Origin: Nymphaea colorata
Taxonomy: Eukaryota > Streptophyta > Magnoliopsida > Nymphaeales > Nymphaeaceae
Direction: 5' to 3'
Length of the DNA: 64,000 bases
NCBI RefSeq assembly: GCF_008831285.2
Contig: NC_045141.1
Span: 19,216,848 to 19,280,847 of the forward strand
The position numbers were made by a program, and so were the translations under genes. The notes under the pieces are model-generated. The model was not told the origin of the DNA and ran no database searches. It saw nothing but the letters and a program-made list of their open reading frames with translations. Position 1 is the stretch's first letter. Every line of letters begins with the position of its first letter. Below are positions 908 through 49,873 of this stretch, piece after piece.

Positions 908-3498
908 TTATAGGTGCTCCTTCTTCTTATCGTGATCCTTCTTATGGTGTTTCTTCTTCGTTTTCTTACCCTCCTTCATCCTCTTATTCTTCTTATCCTT
1001 CTTCTTCTTTTTGTCTCTCCTTGTCACAGGCTTTCGACCAGGCCTTGATTTTCTTGCGGGCTGAGACGTTGGGGCGGGCATTGGCTTGGAACCTGGAGCT
1101 GGCTGTGAAGGTGAAGCTGGCCTTGATCCCGGTGCTGGTTGAGACGCTGGGGCGGGCATTGGCTTAGAACCTGGAGCTGGCTTGGAGCCAGGTGCTGGCT
1201 GCCAAGGTGACGTTGGCCTTGATCCCGTTGCTGGTTGAGACACTGGGGCTAGCACTGGGTCGGAACCTGGAGCTGGCTTGGAGGAAGGTGCTCTCTGGGA
1301 AGGTGACGCTAGCCTTGATCCTGGGGCTGGCATTGGCTCAGAACCAGGAACTGGCTTGGAGGCCGGTGCTGGCAGCGTAGGTGATGCTGGCCTTGATCCT
1401 GGGGCCGGCTTGGAACCTGGAGCTTGCTTGGAGCCAGGTGCTGGCAGCGAAGGTGATGCTGGCCTTGATCTTGGTGCCGGCTTGGAACCTGGGGCTGGCA
1501 CTGGCACAGGCTTGGAACCTGGAGCTGGCTTGGAGCCAGGTGCTAGCTGCGAAGGTGACGCTGGCTTTGAGCATGGGGCTAGCACTGGCCTAGAACGTGG
1601 GGCCAGCTCGAAGGCAGGTGCTGCTTACGAAGGTGATGTTGGCCTTGATCCTGGTGCAGGTTGAGATGCTGGGGCCGACATCGGCTCAGAACCTGGAGCT
1701 GGTTCGAAGGCAGGTGTTGGCTGCGAAGGTGACGCCGGCATTGATCCAGGTGCTGGCCGAGACACTGGGGCCGGCACCGGCTCAGAACCTGGAGTGGGCT
1801 TGGAGGCAGGTGCTGGCTGCGAAGGTGACGCTGGCCCTGATCTTGGTGCTGGCTGAGACGCTGGGGCCAGCACCGGCTCAGAACCTAGAGCTGGCTCGGA
1901 GACAGGTGATGGCTGCGAAGGTGACGCTGGCCCTGATCCTGGTACTGGCCGAGACGCTGGACCTGGCTGGGAGGCAGGTGCTGGCTGCGAAGGTGATGCT
2001 GGCCTTGATCCTGGCTCGGAGGCTGGTGTTGGCTGCGAAGATGACGCTGGGGCCGGCTCGGAGGCAGCTGCTGGCTGCGAAGATGACGCTGGGGCCGGCT
2101 CGGAGGCAGCTGCTGGCTGCGAAGATGACGCTGGCCCTGATCTTGGTGCTGGCCGAGACGCTGGGGCTGGCACTGGCCCAAAACCTGGAGCTGGCTCGAA
2201 GGTAGGTGCTGGCTGCGAAGATGACGCTGGCCCTGATCTTGGTGCTGGCCGAGACGCTGGGGCTGGCACTGGCTCAGAACCTGGAGCTGGCTCGAAGGTA
2301 GGTGCTGGCTGCGAAGGTGACGCTGGCCCTGATCTTGGTGTTGGCCGGGACGCTGGGGCCGGCACCGGCTCAGAACCTGGAGCTGGCTCGGAGGCAGGTG
2401 CTGGATGCGAAGGTGACGCTGGCCCTGATCCTGGTGCTGGCCGAGACGCTGGGGCCAGCACCGGCTCGGAACCTGGAGCTGGCTCGGAGGCAGGTGTTGG
2501 CTTCGACCCTGATCCTGGTGCTGGCCGAGACGTTGGGGCCGGCATCGGCTCAGAACTTGGAGCTGGCTCAGAGGCAGGTGCTGGCTGCGAAGATGGCGCT
2601 GGCCCTGATCCTGGTGCTGAACGAGACGCTGGGGCCAACACTGGCTCAGAACTTGGAGCTGGCTCGGAGGCAGGTGCTGGCTGCGAAGATGACGCCAACC
2701 CTGATCCTGGTGCAGGTCAAGATGCTGGGGCTGACACCGGCTCAAAACCTGGAGCTGGCTCGGAGGCAAGTGCTGGCTGCGAAGATGACGCCGGCCCTGA
2801 TCCTGGTGCGGGTCGAGATGCTGGGGCCGACACCGGCTCAGAACCTGGAGCTGGCTCGGAGGCAGGTGCTGGCTGCGAAGATGACGCTGGCCCTGATCCT
2901 GGTGCTAGCCGAGACGCTAGGGCTGAAACCGGCTCAAAACCTGGAGCTGGCTCGGAGGCAGGTGCTGGCTGCGAAGATGAAGCTGGCACTAATCTTGGTG
3001 TTGGCTGAGATGATGGGGCCGACATCAGCTCAGAACCTGGAGCTGGTTTGGGGGCAGGTGCTGGCTGCGAAGGTGACGCTGGCCCTGATCCTGGCTCAGA
3101 GGCAGGTGTTGGCCGCCAAGTTGACTCTAGGGCCGACACCGGCTCAAAACTTGGAGCTGGCTCGGAGGCAGGTGCTGGCTGCGAAGATGACGCCTGATTT
3201 TGGTGTTGGTTGAGATGAGGGGGCCGACACAGGCTCAAAACCTCGAGCTGGTTTGGAGGTAGGTGTTGGCTGCGAAGTTGCCGCTGGCCTTGATCCTGAT
3301 GCTGACTCTGGGCTGGTTTGGAACCTCACGCTTGTTTCGAACTATATATGAGCTACTTATTGTAGAATAATATTTAAGCATTTCATGACAATATATATGC
3401 ATATATATAAATATATATTTACCGTAAACACACTGAATTGCCAACATGGAAGCGATGAAAATGGTAAGTATTGCTGCAAGGCCTCGAGGACCCGCCAT
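908..3498 (-). pseudogene. PAR1-A: PAR1-family relic, signal-peptide exon joined to a giant repeat exon
   Basis: Exon 1 (3498-3423, 76 nt) encodes a signal peptide starting MAGPRGLAA and ending QCVYG. It is nearly identical to exon 1 of PAR1-C and ends at the equivalent GT donor in the same phase. The cysteine-rich middle exon of PAR1-C is absent. A phase-compatible acceptor at about 3308-3310 would join exon 1 directly to a long exon of 32-residue Pro/Ala/Ser/Gly/Glu repeats. That exon ends in a Lys/His-rich tail (stop at 908-910). The repeat frame is interrupted: it shifts once between about 3144 and 3238, and it has in-frame stops at 2717 and 1625, the first consistent with a CGA-to-TGA change. 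I infer a decaying gene that could at best make a short secreted proline-rich peptide. PAR1 (photoassimilate-responsive) proteins are small secreted cysteine-rich plant proteins of unknown biochemical role. The exon 1 homology is certain; the acceptor and the loss of function are inference. Confidence 0.75.
1060..3305. repeat. 96-bp coding minisatellite, about 23 copies
   Basis: The unit is 96 bp, so it adds exactly 32 codons per copy. On the minus strand it reads as variants of APASEPAPGSEP plus VPAPASRPAPGSGPASPSQP. On the plus strand each copy carries 'ggtgctggctgcgaaggtga' and later 'cagaacctggagctggctcg'. Some copies are shortened, for example near 1980-2110 and 2490-2520, and point differences are scattered. 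Purifying pressure on the frame is not obvious, because stops occur. The same array, with about 5-6 copies, recurs at 11,060-11,600. Confidence 0.9.
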
Positions 3499-3570
3499 GG
3501 CGGACACCTCCCAAATAGAAGAGGATCAAGGAATCGCTTGCGACGGCCTTTTGTTTGGGATATAGGGTGG

Positions 3571-3580
3571 TACTTATAAG
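3571..3580 (-). promoter_or_regulatory. TATA box of PAR1-A
   Basis: On the minus strand this reads CTTATAAGTA, about 75 bp upstream of the exon 1 ATG. The same element lies at the same place before PAR1-B (11,840-11,847) and PAR1-C (17,181-17,188). The promoter core was therefore copied with the gene. Confidence 0.6.
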
Positions 3581-3613
3581 CGTTTATGCCCAGACTTGGT
3601 CATCGATAGGCAA

Positions 3614-3630
3614 GCAGTCGACGTGACTGC
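3614..3630. promoter_or_regulatory. Conserved 17-bp inverted repeat with ACGT core upstream of PAR1-A
   Basis: The sequence GCAGTCGACGTGACTGC has 6-bp perfect inverted arms around GACGT. It sits about 40 bp upstream of the TATA box. An identical copy is found upstream of PAR1-B (11,883-11,899); in PAR1-C (17,223-17,239) one arm is changed. ACGT cores are typical of bZIP sites. Function is inferred. Confidence 0.4.
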
Positions 3631-3794
3631 GAGTTACGAGTTCTTGAAATGTGTGAACGTGATAAGTTCTTCAAGTAAGACTTGCCATACATTGGACAAA
3701 CCAGAATGATCAGGTAGCGGAGAACTATGTAGGTCAATCTAATGGCGTGCACGTACACTTTAATGGCATGTACGTACATCAAGTGACAAGTGTC

Positions 3795-3796
<2 letters not shown>

Positions 3797-3869
<73 letters not shown>
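3797..3869. repeat. (AT)n(AG)n microsatellite
   Basis: A run of AT dinucleotides passes directly into a run of AG dinucleotides in the PAR1-A upstream region. Related AT or GA tracts lie at the same place upstream of PAR1-B (about 12,045-12,093) and PAR1-C (17,356-17,397). Confidence 0.9.
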
Positions 3870-3871
<2 letters not shown>

Positions 3872-3879
3872 CATTAGTA

Positions 3880-5827
3880 AGTTGTTTTTGGCGAATGCAA
3901 CCATGTAAGTTTGCATAAAATTTAAAAGGGGAAAAATGACCTTTTTGGGTCTACTTTCTTGTCCTTAATTTTAGAAAACAAGGCCAATTTTTTTCTATTT
4001 CTCTAACTAGGGTCTTGTTTCTTAAAAATATATATCAAATAAGGGCGTTAGCTAAACTCTATTGACGCGGTAAGCAAACAAAAGGTTGTTATATAGTAAT
4101 AGCGGGCAATGTTTGGAATCGGAAATTGCATTAGACATCTTTCGTTTCCCAAAAGATTTTCTTTCGACCCTCTTATTTGATATTCTTAAAAAAAAATCGG
4201 GCATTGATTAAAAATCACAAAGTGGCAATCCATTTTTATGACTATAAGCAAAAGATGGGACAAAATAGGCATTGTCCTTGAAAAATAATTGAGAAAGATA
4301 TTGTATACAGGCCTTCCAGCATTCTCAACTGTGTTCACGCATAATGCTACCAAAAAAATACTTTCTTTCTACGCCCCTACATATTTCACATTCTTATTAT
4401 AAAAAAAACTTAGCTATTAGACGCCTAGGCAGCGACACCTAGTGATGTCAATGGATCAGATATCCGTTCGAATTGCCTTTAAAAAATCGGATATGGCAAG
4501 CAATTTAACATCCAAATAAGAAAATCGGATCGGACTCAGATTTAAGAAATAACATCAGATCGGATTTAGATTCAGTTCTAAGTAAATAACCGATCGGATA
4601 CGAGTTCGGATTCGGATTAAGTTTTAAGTAAATATCCAATCAAATAGTTCACCATCTTAACAAGTATGAATCAGAATCCTGAGTTGATATTTGAATCCGA
4701 ATTACAGCTTGATATCCGAATCTGATATTGGTAGTCCCTGTTTTATGACTATAAGTGAAAGATGGGACAAAATAAGCGTTGTCTTTAAAAAGTAATTGAG
4801 ACAGATATTTTATATAGGCCTTCCAGCATTCTCAACTGTGTTGACGCATAAACTTAGCTATTAGACGCCTAGGCAGCGACACCTCAATCCGAGAAGTCCT
4901 TTGTGATGAATGAGGGAGGGATATGATATCTCTACTTTGTTTTCAATAACAAGAGGTTGACTCCGGGCGAGAGGAAGTGTGGTGGAAGGTAGCTGTGAGA
5001 AAATAATGACACACTATGAGATCAAAAGTTTTGGGTTATTTATTATGTCATTTTACTTGTGACACAATATCAGAAAATATTTGCACCTTTGAGTATAAGA
5101 TATATCAAAAGCTCATTTACTTAGATTTAGTAAAAAAATAGCAAAATTGCGACCATGTTCTTGAAAAGACCGAATTTTCCATTCATAAATCCTATGTCAT
5201 ATAATACTTGAAAGTATGGTCACAACTCATGGTTAAATTCTAAAAAAGATCGTGCAAGTTAAGTTTAACATAGAATTAGATAGACAATTTGAAACATCTT
5301 ACTAATGGATTAATTGTCCTAGTCACTAATATTTTTAAGGTTATATATCAAAAACTATTAGTGAGCGGGTTTCAGTTATATCAAATCAGGAGCTTGTGCT
5401 TGGTTATTGCAATGGTATCAAAGTCACTTCGACACTGGAATTTAAAGTCTCACGTGCATGGATGCATGAGCTTTAAGGAGATGGATTGTAACACTTCACT
5501 CAAAAGTTTTATCCTATATTTAAGACTTTAAAGAATCTTGGAGAAATTATAAGAGAGTTGGCTGAGTGATTGATTGTCATGGTTTCTAACTTTTTTTTTA
5601 GGAATTGAAGTGAAGTTGTTAGGAGGGTTAGTTCGAATATGCCAACTGAGAGTCCATTCTCTGTACGAGAGTGATGCAGGATATTACATAATTTGACGAT
5701 CAGACGGTCGATATGAAATTGTAAATATACAAGTCAAATTATTTTATAGAAAAGTTCGAAATACACTACAAAGGATGGATGGAGGAAGAAAAAGGAAGAA
5801 GAAAGAAATGAAGTAAAAAATTATGAA
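3880..5827. other. Intergenic block shared by the three duplicated units
   Basis: No gene is seen. The sequence aligns by eye with 12,130-13,735, and its last 900 bases also align with 17,420-18,345. Shared landmarks include 'aagttgtttttggc', 'gcctaggcagcgacacct' and 'ggatgcatg'. Inside this copy a segment of about 200 bp occurs twice (about 4,223-4,440 and 4,727-4,890), on either side of the insertion listed separately. Short open frames in the block are not conserved between copies. Confidence 0.7.
4441..4735. repeat. Repeat insertion rich in GGATnCGAAT motifs
   Basis: These 295 bp are absent from the equivalent place in the middle unit (about 12,745). They are full of 'atcggat' and 'atccgaat' variants and begin with 'agtgatgtcaatggatc'. 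A similar stretch at about 36,600-37,020 ends in 'attgacatccct', the reverse complement of the start motif. I infer a dispersed non-autonomous element; its class is not established. Confidence 0.45.
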
Positions 5828-6673
5828 AGCTTTCAAGTGCAGAAGGCCATCTTAGTTCAGTCGACACAAGATAAGGCGCCATACATGGCAAACATAACAT
5901 ATATGGAACCATGAAATTCCTTTCGTTTGCTTGAGCTCTGCGTTGCATGATTTATTGCTCTCCATACAAAACCTAAAACCAGACGTTCCAAACAGGCATC
6001 GCACTATAAAGATGAAGTAAGAACCATCAAGACAGACGATAAACAGGCGTATCATCTACCGGACAGATGCTGGACTACAATGTCAGGCAAGAAACATGAA
6101 AAATATTACAAACTCTATAAAAATTTATTGCACCAACAAAGTATTCCGTTTGAGCTAGAATCTCAGAATGTTTCTCAGTAAACGGTAAGGGAAAGAGTAT
6201 CAGGGCCAAGGCCTGGATTTACCATTCAGCCTATTCAAGAGGGGAAACCACAGAACACACCGTTTCTCAATAGCTCAACCACAGAAAGATTTCAGTTTAT
6301 CACTTTAACATCACGCATGCGAACATCTAAAAGGAAATATCGGAGATTTTAACAATACGATCGGACAGACCACCAGATCAGCTCTTATGCAGCTGATCAG
6401 CATTAGCACTTACTTCCCACTTTCATTTACAGAGATAGATATATTTTGTGCTGATTTATTATATATATATATATAGATAGTATAGACAAACTTTCATCTC
6501 TGCGCCACTTTGCTTCGTTTCGATAACCCACCGTAAGTAATAAACCACATGACCAACCTAGGTCACAAGGTCTTTTCAAACAAACAAAATACACCCAAAA
6601 TCCTTTTATTTCCAAGGCCAGTAAAACACTTCCATCGCCAACATGGATACACAAGCCCTCTCTATCTGCTTAA

Positions 6674-6713
<40 letters not shown>

Positions 6714-7200
6714 CCCTTTCGTTTTCAAGAAAACAGAATAGAGAGAAGAACACAATCATGCTTTCCCACAAGAAAAAAATCGAGTTTCTGTACACAAACT
6801 TACAATTTCTCCTTTGACAAACATCCGAGAAAATTATGGCAGGTAACGTAAGAGTTTTCCAGCAAATACTGTACGTGTTGGTTAAGCAAAAGGAAAACCA
6901 ACACCAGAGGGGATCTCACAAAACCTCTTCTGTTAGGCGTCATCTATAATCACGAACATGAGACATGAAAGATGGTCTAGTTGCGATCCCCAAAATGAAC
7001 AAAATAAGCCCTAAGTAAATCGAGTTTCACATGTTTTTATTCTTATAATTATTTTTCTACATGGTTAGGAACCACTTTTTAGAAACAAAAAGGCAAATTA
7101 ACATGTGTCCTTCAGATTTGGCTAACCAAATAATTTAGTTCCATTTATTTTAATTTAATGTTTTGCTGTTTCAACCAGCAGACATGGAAAGCAACATCGT
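5828..7200 (-). pseudogene. Fragment of the BSK gene 3' region (3' flank plus intron 9), exon 10 missing
   Basis: The segment is paralogous to 20,849-23,009. It starts at 'gaaagctttcaagtgcagaa' (compare 20,849) and ends inside BSK intron 9 at 'gacatggaaagcaacatcgt' (compare 22,991-23,009). The stretch corresponding to about 22,025-22,810, which includes coding exon 10, is absent: the text passes from 'aggccctaagta'-like sequence straight to 'cacatgtttttattctt'. No coding sequence remains. A (TA)n tract at 6,676-6,713 is longer than its counterpart near 21,712. The fragment is broken on the right by the copia element. Confidence 0.8.
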
Positions 7201-7436
7201 TGTGAAGTTAACACTAAGGAAAAAGAAGAAGAGGCTCAACAAGAAGGATCGTATTTTCTGTATATTGTTATTGATAACTTTCTATCTTAATATACATGGT
7301 AGCAAGAATTTAGGGATATGGAGTTACAACGGATTCTCAGTTACAACAGAATTGGAAACAATATCTTGACTAATAAAGAAGATTTTATCTTCAAAATTCA
7401 AACTGTTTCGGTAGCCATCCTGCTAGTCATCGTACA
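7201..7436 (-). repeat. 3' LTR of the copia fossil
   Basis: In the element's orientation the segment starts TGTACGATGAC and ends TTAACTTCACA, the TG...CA ends expected of an LTR. It is preceded by a purine-rich tract (TTTTGAGGGGGAG) that fits a polypurine tract. Comparison with BSK intron 9 (to 23,009) places the outer boundary exactly at 7,200/7,201. No second LTR was recognised, so an age from LTR divergence cannot be given. Confidence 0.75.
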
Positions 7437-10400
7437 CTCCCCCTCAAAATGGAGGGTACAGATCTGTGACACCCAACTTGGCCTTCAAGCTTTGAAACAT
7501 ATCCCTGCCCAATGGTTTTGTGAAAATATTAGCCAGTTGCAATGACGTGGATACATGCTGAGGTTGAATTGTTTTTTGTTGAACCTTCTCTCGAACAAAA
7601 TGACAATCCAATTTTATATGTTTTGTTTTTATATGTTTTGTTCGTTCATGAAAAACTGAATTTTTGGAGATATACAAGGCTGCTTGATTGTCACAATATA
7701 GGCTTATTGGTTTGTGATGGTGTACATCTGAATCCTTTAATAGTGCCTTCAACCATACAATTTCGCATGCAGCAGTAGTCATCGCTCGATATTCCGCTTC
7801 TACGGATGATCTGGCTACGATAGATTGCTTCTTTGACTTCCATGAGATTGGACTTTTGCTAAGAAAAACCACAAAACCACTTACTGATTTTCGACTTGAA
7901 GGACAGGTCGGCCAATCAGAATCACAATACGCTCTTAACTGCATTTCACTAGATGATGATAGAAAGATACCTTTTTCAGGAGATGATTTTAAGTATCTTA
8001 GTATGCGAAGAGCTGCTTCATAATGTGGAAGTCATGGTGATTGCATGAATTGACTTAACGTATAAATTGAATATGTTATCTTTGGACGAGTAATGGTCAA
8101 ATAAATCAAGCACCCTACTAACCTTCGATACATAGTTGGATCTTTAATCGGTTCACCTTCATTTGGAGTTAGTTTCAGTTTTTGATCCATAGGAAAATCA
8201 GCTGGTTTTGCTCCTAATAGACCAGTGTCAGAAAGAATCTCCAATGCATACTTTGATTTAAAAATATCCCAGATGGCGCTCGAGCAACCTCAATTCCTAG
8301 AAAATACTTGAGATTTCCTAGATCTTTTATATGGAATCTGGAGTGTAAAAAGGTCTTGATTGAAGAAATACCTTGCTCATCATTACCTGTAATAATAAGA
8401 TCATCAACATACACTAGGATATCAATAAACTGATTTCCAGAATGTTGAGTGAATAACGTGTAATCTGCATTGGATTGAATAAAATGAGCATCCTTAAGGG
8501 CAGTCATAAGCTTGTGAAACGAGTTACGTGGTGATTGTTTAAGTCCGTATAAGGACTTATGGAGGCGACAAATAGTAGTACTGGAATACTCCCCCTCACG
8601 AAGAAGGCCTGGAGGAATGGTTATATAAACTTCTTCCTGCAGCTCCCCATGTATGAATGCATTACTAACGTCTATTTGATATATGGGTCATTGACGAGTT
8701 GTAGCAACTGCAAGTAAAGTCCTCATGGTAGTAAGCTTTGCAACTGGAGCAAAAGTCTCATGAAAATCGATGCCCTCAATTTGTGTATACCCTTTTGCGA
8801 CAAGTCGAGCTTTGTAGCGTTCAATGGTACCATCAGACCTCCGTTTGACTTTATATACCCAACGACATCCAATTGGGTTTTTAGTTGGAGGTAGGGTAGT
8901 AAGGGACCAGGTGGTATTTTGTTGGAGAGCATAGATCTCATCAGCCATAGCTTGGCGCCAGTGTTGATGTTGCACCGCTTCCGCATACTAGCTAGGTTCA
9001 GCATCACTCAAAATAGAGGTTAAAAATGCAAAGTGTTGTGGGGAAAACTTAGAATGGTAAAGATAATTTTGAATGGGATACCGTGTACCTAAAGATGGCA
9101 TCATGGAGTGAGGATCCTTAGGCGGCGAATATGATACCATCACGTTTGAGCACACATTCTGATTAAGATATGAAGGTGGGTGTCTTGGGTGACTTGATTT
9201 TCGTATAGTGGGCTCAGGTTTGGATGAAATAGAAGAATTATGATGATTGGCTGGTTCAGTAGGAACGAGATGGGTAGGTGCAATGGGTGGCGACATTGGA
9301 GGAGCTGGCTCATGCGCACTCACAATTGGAGAGTCACGTTCTTCACTCATGTAGTCTTCTTGTGGTGTTGGCAGCATAGGTGAGTTCAAACCATCATCAT
9401 TTTGAAATTGGAATGGGAACCGGTCTTCATAAAATACTACATCGCGACTTATAAAAACTTCTTTGGAGTTAAGATTATAGACTTTATATCCTTTTTTATT
9501 TTAAGGATATCCTACAAAAATGCATCTATATGCACGTGTGGTAAATTTATCTCGGTGTACACTCATATTTCGAGCATAACATAGACATCCAAAGACACGC
9601 AAATCTTCATAGGTGAGTTTTTTATGAAACAAGAGTTCAAAAGGAGATTTATTATTCAAAATAAGGGATTGGAGACAATTAATCAAGAATGTGGCTGTTA
9701 AAATACATTCGCCCCAAAACTTAATAGGTAAGTGCATGAAAACGAAGCGCTCGGGAAACTTCAAGTAAGTGGCGCTGTTTTCTTTCAACTCTTCCATTTT
9801 GTTGCGGTGTCGCAACACATGAAGTTTGGTGTTCTATCCCATGTGTATAAAAAAATTCTGGCATATTATTTGCTATAAATTCTGAACCATTGTCACTTCG
9901 AAGACATTTAATTTTGGTGTAAAATTGGTTTTCTACCATAGCATGGAACCGAGTGAAACAAGAAAAAGTTTCAGACTTAAAGTGCATCAAGAAGACCTAA
10001 GTTGCAGGAGAGAAATCATCAACTATAGTGAGGAAGTAGTGTGCTCCAGTGTGTGAGGGCGTGGGCAGTGAAGCAATGCAAATGGGAAACTCGCTCTACT
10101 ACTACTATGAGAAAAGGACAAGTGAGAGAACTTAGCTTTATGACAAGCATCACATAAAAATTCATGCTTGGAAATGAGAACATCAGAATTCAAAGATTGA
10201 GTCTTGTCAAATGACGGGTGTCCAAGTCTCATATGCCAAACATGAGATTTATTAAGGGAAGAAACAGAAATAGCATGAGAACTGGCCGGTAATCGTAGAT
10301 GGTACAATCCGCTGCATAAGCTACCCACTCCAATCAGCCTCTTCGACAAACGGTCCTAAAAGAGTCAACAAGATGAGAGAAAAACAGCCGCATAGTCAAT

Positions 10401-11050
10401 GGTTTTGGTGAGTTTAGGAATTGACAATAGATTGTATTTAAATTCTGATATGTAAAGGACGTCTATAAGTATGAGGTTTGGCTGGAGTTTTATCGTTCAT
10501 GTATGAGTAGCTGAAAGTTGCTGGCCATTTGAAAGATTAATAAGGCGAACTTTGGGTAGAGGAATGACATTGGACATCAAGTGAAGTTGGGGAGTCATAT
10601 GGTCTGAGGCTCCGGTATCAATAATCCATGGTAAATGATGGGAGGAATTGAGTATATGCTTACCTGCGACGTTTGCAGCAGCAGGTTTGTCATCAGCACT
10701 AAGCCATGCCGTTAATTTACTGATTTGATCTTCAGTCAGCTGAGAGAGAACTGTTGCAGCAATAGTAACATTTGCCGAGGATCCATTTTGAGTGTGTCCG
10801 CCTAGCCATTTCAGGTGAAGCTCTAGATTTTGGATGATTAGGCGGGTAGCCATGTAATGCATGACAGCATGCTTGGATATGCCCAAGTTGTCCACAATGG
10901 TCACATTTTGGACGTGGACTGTTACTCGTGTACTGTTGTCCTCTTGGCTGAAAATTTTTGTTATAAGAAGGTAACGAGTTTACTGCTAAAGCAGTATTTT
11001 CAGAACTCAAGAGCTGCAGAACTAGTAGTCACCGAGTTTCCTCTTGCAGC
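7201..11050 (-). mobile_element. Ty1/copia LTR retrotransposon fossil
   Basis: Minus-strand open segments carry copia parts in the family order. A gag zinc knuckle (CDHCGQLGH) lies near 10,880-10,935 and a protease signature (IDTGASDHM) near 10,595-10,625. A pre-integrase histidine/cysteine region (HMRLGHPSF, CDACHKAKF) lies near 10,130-10,260. The integrase core (RSDNGSEF, QQNGRVERK) is near 9,770-9,915. Reverse transcriptase ([20 protein letters not shown]) falls within 8,390-8,975. RNase H with its closing ANIFTKPLG motif is at 7,444-7,944. Gag, protease, integrase, RT, RNase H is the Ty1/copia order. One LTR is recognised at the 3' end. The element is broken, with roughly ten interruptions or fewer in its coding region, and looks old. 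It is inserted in the BSK-derived fragment on its left side and abuts the PAR1-B repeat array on its right side. Confidence 0.92.
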
Positions 11051-11766
11051 ACAAGGGACCTGGAGTTGACTTGGATGCATGTGCTGGCTACGAAGGTGAC
11101 GCCGGCCTTGATCCAGGTGTTGGCTGAGACGTTGGGGCCGGCACTGGCACACAGCTTGGAGCTGCCTCAGAGGTAGGTGCTGGCTGTGAAGAAGACACTG
11201 GCGTTGATCCTAGTGCTGGCTAAGACGCTGGGGTCGGCACTTGCTCAGAACCTGGAGCTGGGTCGGAGGCAGGTGTTGGCTGGGAAGGTGATGCAGGCCT
11301 TGATCCTGGTGCTGGCTGCGATGCTGGGGTCGGGACCGACTCAGAACCTCGAGCTGGCTCAGAGGCAGGTGGTGGCTGTGAAGGTGACGCAGGCCTTGAT
11401 CCTGGTGCTGGCTGAGACACTGGGGTCAACACTGGCTCAAAACCTGGAGCTGGCTTGGAGTCAAGTGCTCGCTGCGAAGGTGATGCTAGCCTTGATCCTG
11501 GTGTTGGCCGAGACGTTGGGGCTAGCACAGGCTCGGAACCTGGAGCTGGCTCGGAGGCAGGTGTTGGCCTCAAAGATGATGCTGGTTTGGAACCTGATGC
11601 TGTTTCAAAACAATATATGAGCTACTTATTATAGAATAATATTGAAGCATTTCATGACGATATATATGTACATATATAAATATATATTACCATAAACACA
11701 CTGTATTGCCAACATGGAAACGATGGCTATAGTAAGCATTGCTGCAAGGCTTCGAGGACCCGCCAT
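11051..11766 (-). pseudogene. PAR1-B: second PAR1 relic with signal-peptide exon and repeat exon
   Basis: Exon 1 (11,766-11,691, 76 nt) encodes MAGPRSLAAML, a hydrophobic core and QCVYG, ending at a GT donor in the same phase as PAR1-A and PAR1-C. No cysteine-rich exon follows. A phase-compatible acceptor near 11,590 would join it to a proline-rich frame (start near 11,573) that stops at 11,220. The 96-bp array continues past that stop to about 11,060, where the copia fossil begins. The Lys-rich tail and 3' flank seen in the other two copies are missing. The promoter core is retained. I infer a non-functional or very reduced gene; a short secreted proline-rich product of roughly 150 residues cannot be excluded. 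Confidence 0.75.
11060..11600. repeat. Second array of the 96-bp minisatellite, about 5-6 copies
   Basis: The unit is the same as in the 1,060-3,305 array and in the same orientation relative to its signal-peptide exon. On the minus strand it reads variants of PTPASEPAPGSEPVLAP. The copies are fewer and more divergent from each other. The array ends abruptly at the copia fossil. Confidence 0.85.
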
Positions 11767-16012: not shown

Positions 16013-17089
16013 TTATAATCCTCCTTTTTGTGTGTTTCCTGCCCCAGACTCACCATGTGTACCATTCGTTGATCCTCGTGCTGGGGCTGGGGCTGGCACC
16101 TGCTCGGACCCTGGAGCTGGCCCTGAGGCAGCCGCTGGTTTGGAACCCGGCCCCGGTGTTGGCTCCGACGGAGGTGGCAATGACCCTGGTGCTGGAGCCA
16201 CAAAGCCGGAGCTGAGCGTCTCAAACATCCCACGCCTGGGGTTGTCCTTCAATGACTCACACAGTTTGGGGAGGAAGATGCCTGCAGCATCGTCAGCAGA
16301 AAGAACATCATTTTCGATACCATTCATTATATACAAACATAAACCGTAGAGAAAGAGAGAGAGTCATAGAGTTGATGTGGCTGCACTACAGGTTGACAAG
16401 AATGGCGGAGGGAATAACTTGCCTTCAGCTGCAGCAAGTTTGAAGTAAAGGTCGACGATGTTGGGGCAGCCTCCATAGCAAGGGTCGGAGCAAAGTCTCT
16501 CCAGGAATTGGCGCTCCATGAGCGAGTCGGAGGAGATGCCCACCGAGCTTCTGTCCACACCACATGCCTCCACGCACCCGTCGCTCTCGACCCACCCGGC
16601 GATGTCGTCCGCCTTCACCTGAGACGTCCTGCATTGCAGCTTCACTTCTTCGCCGTAATTGTACTTCTCGAGCACGCACCGCATTCCGGCCGACGACACC
16701 GAGAACGCGCACATCTCCGTCGGCAGGTTCTCGCAAGCTATTTCCCCTGTTCATGAGTCCACCACAAACGCCACAATATGGGATATTCATGACCAGTTAC
16801 TGGGCAAAAGCAGAGGAACCTTACATGGTCGATCGGACGCCAGAAAAGCAAAATTATCACAAAACTCAAATAATGCAGTAACGGAATGCGCAAACCATGT
16901 TCCGATGGTTTTGTTAATTAAATGGCGCAACTGATATGTATGACAACAAAACGATGAGCTAATTATTGTAGAATATTCAACCAATTCATTGCGATATACA
17001 TATATATATTTACCGTAAACACACTGAATTGCTAACATGGAAGCGATGCCCATGGTGAGCATTGCTGCAAGGCCTCGAGGACCCGCCAT
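16013..17089 (-). CDS. PAR1-C: PAR1-family secreted cysteine-rich protein
   Basis: There are three exons: 17,089-17,014, 16,746-16,423 and 16,281-16,013 (669 nt, 222 aa plus stop). Residues 1-26 form a signal peptide. The Cys-rich PAR1 domain follows, with landmarks GEIACENLPTEMCAFSVSS, VESDGCVEACGVDRSSVG, LCSDPCYGGCPNIVDLYF and FLPKLCESLKDNPRRG. A short Pro-rich tail (APAPGSLPPPSEPTPGPGS and on) follows. This is the full architecture and usual length of plant PAR1 (photoassimilate-responsive) proteins, which are presumed extracellular and have no known enzymatic role. All joins keep phase 1. Intron 1 is GT-AG; intron 2 uses a GC donor (AAG|GCAAGT). The tail ends QKGGL just before a Lys-rich region in another frame. 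The start is the ATG at 17,089, preferred over an in-frame GTG 9 nt upstream. It appears to be the only intact member of the three-copy cluster. Confidence 0.9.
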
Positions 17090-20703: not shown

Positions 20704-20848
20704 GCAAAATGCAGCTCGAATTAGCTTATCGAGCTTACTAGGGATAATATCTGTACGCTCTTCTTGACCTGCTGCCGCCAACCCACAGCAGAGATGGAAA
20801 AGCCGAGCCCATCTCTGCCTATACATGGGTTGCTTAGGGAGGCCCACG

Positions 20849-22171
20849 AAAGTTTTCCAGTGCAGAAGGCCATATTAGTTCAGTCGAGACAAGGCACCAT
20901 ACAAGGCGCGAACATATCAAAGTTGGAACCATGAAATTCCTTTGATTTGCTTGAGCTCTGCGTAGCATGATTGATTGCATTCCATGCAAACCTAAAACCA
21001 GACGTTCCAAACAGGCATCGCCCTTTAAAGTTGATGGAAGAACCATGTAGACAGACCATGAACAGACCTATCATCTACTGAACAGATGCTAGACTACAAT
21101 GTCAAGCAAGGAACATGTAAAATATTATGAACTGTATAAAAACTTAATGCACCAACCAATAGAGTATCTGTTTGAGCTATAATCTCATAATGTTTCTCAG
21201 TGAACGGTAGGGGAAGGGGTCTCAGGGCCAAGGTCTGGATTTACCATTCAGCTTGTCCATGAGGGGAAACCACAAAACACACGGTTTCTCAATAGCCCAA
21301 CCACAGAAAGATTGCAGTTTATCACTTTCACATCACGCATGGGAATATCTAAAAGGAAATATCGGAGAAATTTAACAATATGATCAGACAGACCACCAGA
21401 TCAGCGCTTATGCAGCTGATCAGCATTAGCACTTACTCCTCACTTAAATTTACAGAGATACATATATTTTGTGTTGATTTATTCTAGAAATTTTCTGTTA
21501 GTATAGACAAACTTTCGTCTCTGCGCCAACTTTGCTTCGTTTCCATAACCCACGGTAAGTAATAAAACCACATGACCGACCTATGTCACAGGATTTCACG
21601 TTCAACTTTTCAAACAAACAAAATACAGCAACATCCTTTTATTTCCAAGGTCAGTAAAACACTTCCACCGCCAACATGGATACACGAGCCCTCTCTATCT
21701 GCTTCAGAATAAATATATATATGTAGCCCTTTCGTTTTCAAGAAAACAGAATAGAGAGAACACAATCTTGCTATCCACACAAGAAGAAAAATCGAGTTTC
21801 TGTACACAAACTTACAATTTCTCCTTGACAAACATCCGAGAAAAATCTGGCAAGTAATGAAGAGTTTTCCAGCAAATACTGCACGTGTTGGTTAAGCAAA
21901 AGGAAAACCAACACCATAGGGGATCTCACAAAACCTCCTGTTAGGCGTAATCTATAATCACGAGCATGAGACATGAAAGATGCTCTAGTTGCGAACCCCA
22001 AAAGGATGAAAATAGGCCCTAAGTAGAAAGAAAATTTCCCATTAATAACTGAACTTATCGATTTGAATCCCAGCTTCAACACGTTAACAATGCACTGAAG
22101 ATGCATTTGCATGGAAGACTGTGGTAAGAGGCCAAAACTTTACCACTTTACCTTCGGCGCTGGTACTAATA
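20849..22171 (-). other. 3' flank and untranslated region of the BSK gene
   Basis: No coding sequence is present. It lies immediately downstream of the BSK stop codon and is paralogous to 5,828-7,020, which helps define the duplicated unit. It probably includes the 3' UTR, but no polyadenylation site can be fixed. Confidence 0.5.
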
Positions 22172-31278
<9,107 letters not shown>

Positions 31279-48286: not shown

Positions 48287-49873
48287 ATGTTGAGATGGGG
48301 TGAGGGACGCCACCGGCACCTTCTCTTCCTTCGCTTCCGTCTCTACGTGCACGCACCAACCACCGTTGCTACTGATCACCATCAACGCATACACTTACGA
48401 GACGGCTCCGCGTGCTCAACATGGAAGAAAAGCGTGTTGTTGAGATCCTTTTTTGCCGAGAAGTCTGCTGCCAGAGTCATCCGACTCTACCGTTTCCTCC
48501 TGTCTTCCAACGCAGAGCTCTGCAACTCCGCGTTCCTGCACGCCCTCAAGGCATGCGCTTCAACGGCGGCGGCGCTTCCCGTAGGCAAATCAATTCACTC
48601 ACAGGTTTGCAGGTTGGGATTTTGCCACGACGTCTATGTCTGCAATTCTTTAGTCGACATGTATGCTAAATCTGGGTGTTTATCGGAAGCTCGCCATCTG
48701 TTTGATGACATGCCAACCAGGAATATTGTATCCTGGAACACAATGGCTTCAGGTTATAGCATAAACGGGCTTTATAACGATGCACTGCAAATTTGTTCCT
48801 TGTTGAAGACCAGCGGATTAAGATTAGACAAGGTTGGCTTGAAGATTGTCATTCCGCTTTGTGGACGGTTGCAGAGACTACGACTTGGGCAAGCTGCACA
48901 CTCTCATGTCATTGCTTCAGGCCAGTTTTCAGATTTGGATTTGGTGGCAGCCATTATGGATATGTATGTAAAGTGTGAGTGTTTGGACGACGCAGCACGG
49001 ATTTTCAACAAGATATTAGTCAAAGATGTTGTCATTTGGAACACCATGATTAGTGGGTTCTCAAGGTTTGCAGACTTAGAGCAGGCACTGGAGCTATTTT
49101 GCCGGATGCAGAATGAAGATGTGAAGCCCAGTGTGGTGACCGCTCTGCTTGCTCTGCAAGCATGCGCCGGTCTAGCGATTCTTTCTGCAGGGGAGGCTAT
49201 TCATGGCCTCTGTATCAGAAGCGGATTATATCTTGATATCTCTGTCCAGACACTTTTGATTGATATGTACTCAAAATCTGGGAAACTGAAGTCCGCTTAC
49301 ATGGTCTTCAGGGGGATTAAGCATAAAGCGACCATTAATTCGTGGAGTGCAATGATTTCAGGGTTTGGTAGGCATGGACAAGGGGAAAGCGGTCTGGCGC
49401 TTTTCTTCAAAATGTTGCAGAGAGGTCTATATCCTGACCGGATCTGCTTTGTGTCACTCCTGTCCATGTGCAGCCATGCTGGTTTAGTAGATGATGGCTG
49501 GAAGTGTTTCAATTATATGGTGCATTTTGGCGTCTCACCTTCAATGGAGCACTATGCTTGTGTAGTTGATCTTTTAAGTCGTGCAGGACATCTGAAGGAG
49601 GCACTCGAATTTGTTCGCAGGATGCCATTTGACCCAGATGCCAGTATCTGGGAAGCTATCATAGGGGGCTGCAAAATCCATAGTGATCTTGAAATGGCAG
49701 AAACATTAAGGCATCATGTTATGGACGTAGGCCCAAGGGCTAAAGGATTTTATTCACTTCTCTTAAGTTGTTATGCTGCTAGAGGCGACTGGAATGAGGT
49801 GCTGAAGATGAGAACCTTGATGCAAAAGAGAGGTGTAGAAAAAACACAAGGGTGGAGCATACTGGAAATGTAG
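48287..49873 (+). CDS. Pentatricopeptide repeat protein, PLS class, E type
   Basis: A single exon of 528 aa. The start at 48,287 (MLRWGEGRH) is preferred to the upstream in-frame ATG at 48,143, because the extra 48 codons come from a microsatellite. The Arg/Ser-rich N-terminus suggests organelle import, but the target cannot be told. Tandem PPR motifs with PLS spacing run from about residue 90. They include SLVDMYAKSGCLSEARHLFD, VSWNTMASGYSINGLYNDAL, AIMDMYVKCECLDDAARIF, VIWNTMISGFSRFADLEQAL, LIDMYSKSGKLKSAYMVF and CVVDLLSRAGHLKEALEFV. An E-type C-terminal region follows (ASIWEAIIGGCKIHSDLEMA to GWSILEM). There is no DYW domain. Such proteins bind organellar RNA sequence-specifically, and E-type members often serve C-to-U editing sites. 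The RNA target is unknown. Confidence 0.93.
   Translation: MLRWGEGRHRHLLFLRFRLYVHAPTTVATDHHQRIHLRDGSACSTWKKSVLLRSFFAEKSAARVIRLYRFLLSSNAELCNSAFLHALKACASTAAALPVGKSIHSQVCRLGFCHDVYVCNSLVDMYAKSGCLSEARHLFDDMPTRNIVSWNTMASGYSINGLYNDALQICSLLKTSGLRLDKVGLKIVIPLCGRLQRLRLGQAAHSHVIASGQFSDLDLVAAIMDMYVKCECLDDAARIFNKILVKDVVIWNTMISGFSRFADLEQALELFCRMQNEDVKPSVVTALLALQACAGLAILSAGEAIHGLCIRSGLYLDISVQTLLIDMYSKSGKLKSAYMVFRGIKHKATINSWSAMISGFGRHGQGESGLALFFKMLQRGLYPDRICFVSLLSMCSHAGLVDDGWKCFNYMVHFGVSPSMEHYACVVDLLSRAGHLKEALEFVRRMPFDPDASIWEAIIGGCKIHSDLEMAETLRHHVMDVGPRAKGFYSLLLSCYAARGDWNEVLKMRTLMQKRGVEKTQGWSILEM

Follow-up and report, generated by a model that had tools for sequence, protein, structure and literature searches.

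Two fused PAR1-derived copies in Nymphaea colorata are probably pseudogenes carrying a neutral, coding-derived minisatellite

Within a 64,000-nucleotide stretch of Nymphaea colorata DNA (the window), two fused loci, copy A at 908-3498 and copy B at 11.05-11.77 kb, descend from a gene of the photoassimilate-responsive protein 1 (PAR1) family (PF06521). Both are very probably pseudogenes of a duplicated PAR1 gene, in which a piece of coding sequence has expanded into a minisatellite evolving neutrally. The two copies have one deletion junction in common, each carries disabling lesions, the substitutions among their repeat units follow a neutral pattern, and intact paralogues lie beside them: copy C in the window and copy D 2.5 kb outside it (locus L009). 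The first-pass annotation described copy A and mentioned neither copy B nor copy D. Coordinates are positions in the window, and the features of copies A, B and C are on the minus strand.

The ancestry of the fused copies is established by comparison with the intact ones. Copies C and D match A and B in exon 1, the promoter region, the start of intron 1, the tail unit and the lysine-rich end, whereas A and B differ by the loss of the entire PAR1 domain and by the multiplied tail. The product of the three exons of copy C (17089-16013) matches the Pfam PAR1 profile at 9.2e-62, in agreement with the family assignment first proposed for this DNA. The exons of copy D are open and encode a signal peptide and the PAR1 domain, then roughly a single proline-rich unit with a long in-frame lysine-rich tail behind it; in copy C, the lysine-rich part sits in another frame. 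Most simply, a one-unit tail followed by a lysine-rich end, as in C and D, would be the ancestral form. Also, C and D look constrained: their exons 2 differ at 13 of 321 positions, with nonsynonymous (dN) and synonymous (dS) divergences of 0.029 and 0.088, the corresponding values for the domain part of exon 3 being 0.015 and 0.167. Intron 2 of copy C apparently has a GC donor, GAAG/GCAAGT (16423/16422; slashes mark splice boundaries), with identical letters in copy D.

When the genome (407,766,735 bases in 783 contigs, the window being on contig C4) was searched with the exon 1 region of copy A, the only matches were A, B, C and D, four places in one cluster. The PAR1 profile gave nine matches genome-wide, six of them of the exon-2 type (C, D, one on C6, two on C12 and one on C13), and none of these six in A or B. 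The match on C13 (C13:5588809-5589147, locus L015) contains one TAA, perhaps because the matched stretch runs on into an intron at its margin. Within the window, a tblastn search with exon 2 of copy C returned a single match, copy C itself, and two stretches of the copy A array matched no Pfam family at an E value of 1. When the 3' end of copy A plus 160 bp of its array was used as the genome query, 22 of the 26 matches fell in the C4 cluster; the remaining four, on C5 and C11, span query letters 2-123 only, which correspond to the lysine-rich end.

The four paralogues align continuously from the promoter through exon 1 into intron 1, whose stub in copy A can be aligned with the intact copies over about 74 nt. 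Past this point A and B switch together to sequence resembling the exon 3 tail, whereas C and D go on through the rest of intron 1 to exons 2 and 3. Copy A has no cysteine-rich exon 2, no intron 2 and no start of exon 3, and the earlier claim that the cysteine-rich exon was gone and the proline-rich tail expanded is thus borne out by the four-paralogue comparison. Since A and B have the same junction, the simplest account would be a single deletion in their common ancestor.

Table 1. Positions of the PAR1-derived features and of the adjoining transposon fragment in the window
Feature	Positions	Strand	Remarks
Copy A, exon 1	3423-3498	minus	ATG at 3498; signal peptide MAGPRGLAAILTIFIASMLAIQCVY, judged by eye
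Copy A, shortened intron 1, then deletion junction into exon 3 tail	3342-3422	minus	
Copy A, TGA immediately past the acceptor homologous to that of copy B	3326-3328	minus	
Copy A, coding-derived 96-bp array	1040-3305	minus	about 23.6 unit lengths; consensus frame PAPGSGPASPSQPAPASEPAPGSEPVPAPASR
Copy A, 5-bp deletion (frameshift in array, near 3194)	3190-3198	minus	
Copy A, in-frame TGA	2717-2719	minus	proline-rich frame, past the 5-bp deletion
Copy A, in-frame TAA	1625-1627	minus	proline-rich frame, past the 5-bp deletion
Copy A, lysine-rich C-terminal end	908-1039	minus	TAA at 910-908; shorter than that of copy D
Copy B, exon 1	11691-11766	minus	fused form as in copy A
Copy B, array	11058-11603	minus	five complete rows of 96 bp plus a partial one
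Ty1/Copia-type pol reading frames	7444-11028	minus	adjoin the cut end of copy B; degraded fragment, by eye
Copy C, exon 1	17014-17089	minus	intact PAR1 paralogue
Copy C, exon 2	16423-16746	minus	cysteine-rich PAR1 domain, missing from A and B; ends by eye
Copy C, exon 3	16013-16281	minus	about one proline-rich unit; exon ends by eye

Exon 1 of copy A is retained as previously annotated, with its start codon and a GT donor, ending in phase 1 and reading G/GTAAAT. The proposal that the splice phase was kept as well holds for copy B, where the junction forms the acceptor AAACAG/CATCAG, ending at 11600, and gives an open phase-1 join. It fails for copy A, whose homologous acceptor reads AAACAAG/CGTGAG and leads straight into a stop. 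To this junction stop copy A adds the 5-bp deletion and two in-frame stops, and the earlier remark that stops suggest decay is the better-supported part of the first interpretation. In copy B, the proline-rich frame is interrupted by TAG at 11222-11220 and 11090-11088, and its 3' end is cut beside the Copia-type fragment, whose domains we take, by eye, to be zinc knuckle, integrase, reverse transcriptase and RNase H. No match to the tails of A, C or D was found in 3501-11055 at an E value of 1e-3, so the missing end of copy B does not lie beyond the fragment within that stretch.

The substitutions among the units give a second line of evidence. For this test, each distinct change was reassigned at random among sites that share its base and CpG state, under the approximations that distinct changes are independent and that the consensus represents the ancestor (the consensus base was not the commonest at one of the 96 columns). 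The sets comprised 141 distinct changes, or 139 without the first six bases of B, both without A above 3305. Pooled over A and B, the 139 distinct changes include 46 that are synonymous in the proline-rich frame, against 45.6 expected at a nonsynonymous-to-synonymous rate ratio (omega) of 1. An omega of 0.5 is rejected (60.1 synonymous changes expected, P 0.0007). Changes present in at least two units, which are likely older, are synonymous in 24 of 66 cases (25.2 expected) and those private to one unit in 22 of 73 (20.6 expected), so that neither shared nor private changes in the units of A and B show any sign of purifying selection on this frame. Moreover, proline codons are not protected, 31 changes losing a proline where 28.9 are expected, and three changes of the 141-change set create a stop, against 3.6 expected. 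Counting every recurrence, the synonymous changes number 109, below the 123.7 expected. A synonymous excess in another sense frame (130 against 102.5, recurrences counted) was considered and rejected because it disappears on distinct changes (38 against 36.9); it is taken as an effect of unit copying.

Conservation of exon 1 was also considered as functional evidence. Between A and B, differences amount to 9/76 in exon 1, 24/259 in the promoter and 5' untranslated region, and 5/74 in the intron stub. For exon 1 and the promoter with 5' untranslated region, respectively, the counts are 6/76 and 44/248 for A-C, 8/76 and 43/246 for A-D, 7/76 and 43/260 for C-D, 9/76 and 33/251 for B-C, and 9/76 and 32/248 for B-D. 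The pairs A-C, A-D and C-D suggest a constraint on exon 1 and the pairs with B hardly do so, the differences being few throughout. The argument was rejected, as exon 1 has diverged between A and B no less than its flanks, again on few differences; we conclude only that exon 1 of these two copies bears no sign of constraint since they split.

The array itself is far beyond chance (Tandem Repeats Finder score of 1674 for 1606-3304). Its earlier description as about 23 units of exactly 96 bp is right in extent, at about 23.6 unit lengths, but not in regularity: after wrap-around alignment to the 96-bp consensus, 13 of the 25 complete rows of copy A measure exactly 96 bp without an insertion or deletion (indel), the rest ranging from 58 to 108 bp, and all five complete rows of copy B are 96 bp long. 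Apart from its ragged ends (3313 and 1040), array A holds 15 indel runs, four of which, seemingly split by the aligner, were merged into two events (38+16 = 54; 4+2 = 6). Without this merging, ten of the 15 runs have lengths divisible by six, and five (38, 16, 5, 4 and 2) are not multiples of three. After merging, 12 of 13 events are multiples of six, the exception being the frame-breaking 5 bp at 3194. Such lengths were rejected as a sign of selection, because the self-similarity of the consensus is 0.52 for lags divisible by six and 0.24 where the lag is not a multiple of three, the best-matching lags being 36, 18, 42, 6 and 24. Slippage on this six-base internal period would yield the observed lengths without any selection. 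A unit that is a multiple of three does preserve the frame, as had been pointed out, but this property shows no selection. Mean similarity between rows (for pairs of rows sharing 50 or more columns) is 0.85 in the 5' part of A, 0.80 in its 3' part and 0.76 in B; the higher 5' value would fit a later expansion in A.

Based on these data, we infer that a duplicated PAR1 gene would have suffered a single deletion that began some 75-90 nt into intron 1 and ended inside the proline-rich tail of exon 3, which would have taken out the PAR1 domain. The leftover tail unit, GC-rich and internally repetitive, would then have multiplied into a minisatellite by slippage or unequal exchange. Duplication of the fused gene would have given A and B, with further expansion of the array in A, and both would have accumulated stops, A also a frameshift, presumably leaving neither with a functional product.

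Several observations weigh against pseudogene status. Past the 5-bp deletion, the proline-rich frame of copy A meets just two stops from 3196 to 911. Among the AGs within 260 nt of its donor, one lying 6 nt beyond the homologous acceptor (an intron of 98 nt) opens a frame of 227 residues, the longest obtained, although its first part lies outside the proline-rich frame. Copy B has a donor, an in-phase acceptor and 151 residues before its first stop. By eye, a TATA-like sequence and the surroundings of the start codon are retained in both copies. Also, an omega of 0.7 is not rejected (52.9 synonymous changes expected against 46, P 0.075), and nearly all indel events within array A preserve the frame. 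The retained exon 1, donor, start codon and TATA-like sequence, the acceptor and open frame of copy B and the frame-preserving indels of array A would be expected under a rival explanation, in which a secreted protein of the hydroxyproline-rich or arabinogalactan-like kind is, or until recently was, the product of the fused gene. The tail would then have expanded under selection behind a re-used signal peptide, and the reference copies would be broken or truncated alleles. This explanation is unlikely, because lesions are present in both A and B, several in each, shared and private changes are alike neutral, proline is unprotected, and the internal period of the unit accounts for the indel lengths. 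The secreted repetitive proline-rich product envisaged in the first-pass annotation is not supported, given the same facts and an exon 1 no better conserved than its flanks between A and B.

A bolder form of the idea is a plant counterpart of the birth of antifreeze glycoproteins, in which a PAR1 gene would have shed its domain, kept the signal peptide and promoter and multiplied one tail unit into a secreted proline-rich repeat protein, which copy B, copy A with its alternative acceptor, or intact alleles elsewhere would still make; taken as a whole, this seems quite improbable. The notothenioid antifreeze glycoprotein genes reportedly derived from a trypsinogen-like protease, as said to have been described by Chen in 1997. 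The likeness to A and B is anatomical, the genes being unrelated, and those of the fishes yield antifreeze proteins, whereas in A and B no product or selection is seen. According to one report, fish antifreeze glycoprotein genes combine a signal-peptide exon with a repeat exon, and a chimeric copy that has a long run of repeats and lacks exon 1 is considered a pseudogene (PMC10256766). A and B differ from that copy in that they retain exon 1.

On the other hand, the array could act as DNA or RNA (a recombination hotspot, a regulatory element or a non-coding transcript) regardless of any protein frame. The G+C content, at 0.638 for array A and 0.603 for array B compared with 0.35 for the flanking stretch 3500-5800, would agree with such a role, but it may merely reflect the proline- and alanine-rich codons of the ancestral tail, and we regard the proposal as very doubtful. 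Finally, it is highly improbable that faulty assembly of a repeat produced the lesions and that the actual gene is open: small indels are a typical long-read error, one lesion of copy A is a small indel in the repeat and its junction stop adjoins a one-base insertion relative to B, but the TGA and TAA of array A and both TAGs of copy B are reached without an indel, and the neutral substitution pattern does not hinge on that small indel.

As probable pseudogenes with a drifting minisatellite, A and B can be set beside two further known systems. Plant arabinogalactan and hydroxyproline-rich proteins, lysine-rich ones included, have a signal peptide followed by repeats rich in proline, alanine and serine. 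A and B are alike in the signal peptide, in the repeats and in a lysine-rich stretch, and differ by their PAR1 origin and broken frames. Coding-derived minisatellites (variable number tandem repeats) occur in pseudogenes, and A and B resemble them in having a neutral array, in-register units and internal sub-repeats; here, the fused copies and intact paralogues are still in one cluster. Among the literature matches listed, judged by titles and the starts of abstracts, there was no PAR1 gene of this form, the matches in one of the listings being mostly on the unrelated thrombin receptor.

Elsewhere in the window, a 1.2-kb stretch is repeated at 5825-7017 and 20848-22025 with 86% identity, and a second match linked to it pairs 7025-7200 with 22824-23009. 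By eye, beta-tubulin exon-like frames (about 42209-46274, plus strand), a pentatricopeptide-repeat gene-like frame (48107-49870, plus strand) and a kinase-like end (24877-25329, minus strand) are seen.

These loci are a caution against taking open frames in an array of multiple-of-three units as evidence of coding. One cluster contains the intact form of a PAR1 gene, a deleted form and a repeat expansion that in principle could yield a new secreted repeat protein. At the A and B loci the outcome looks like decay, which makes them a useful case of how such fusions arise and fail.
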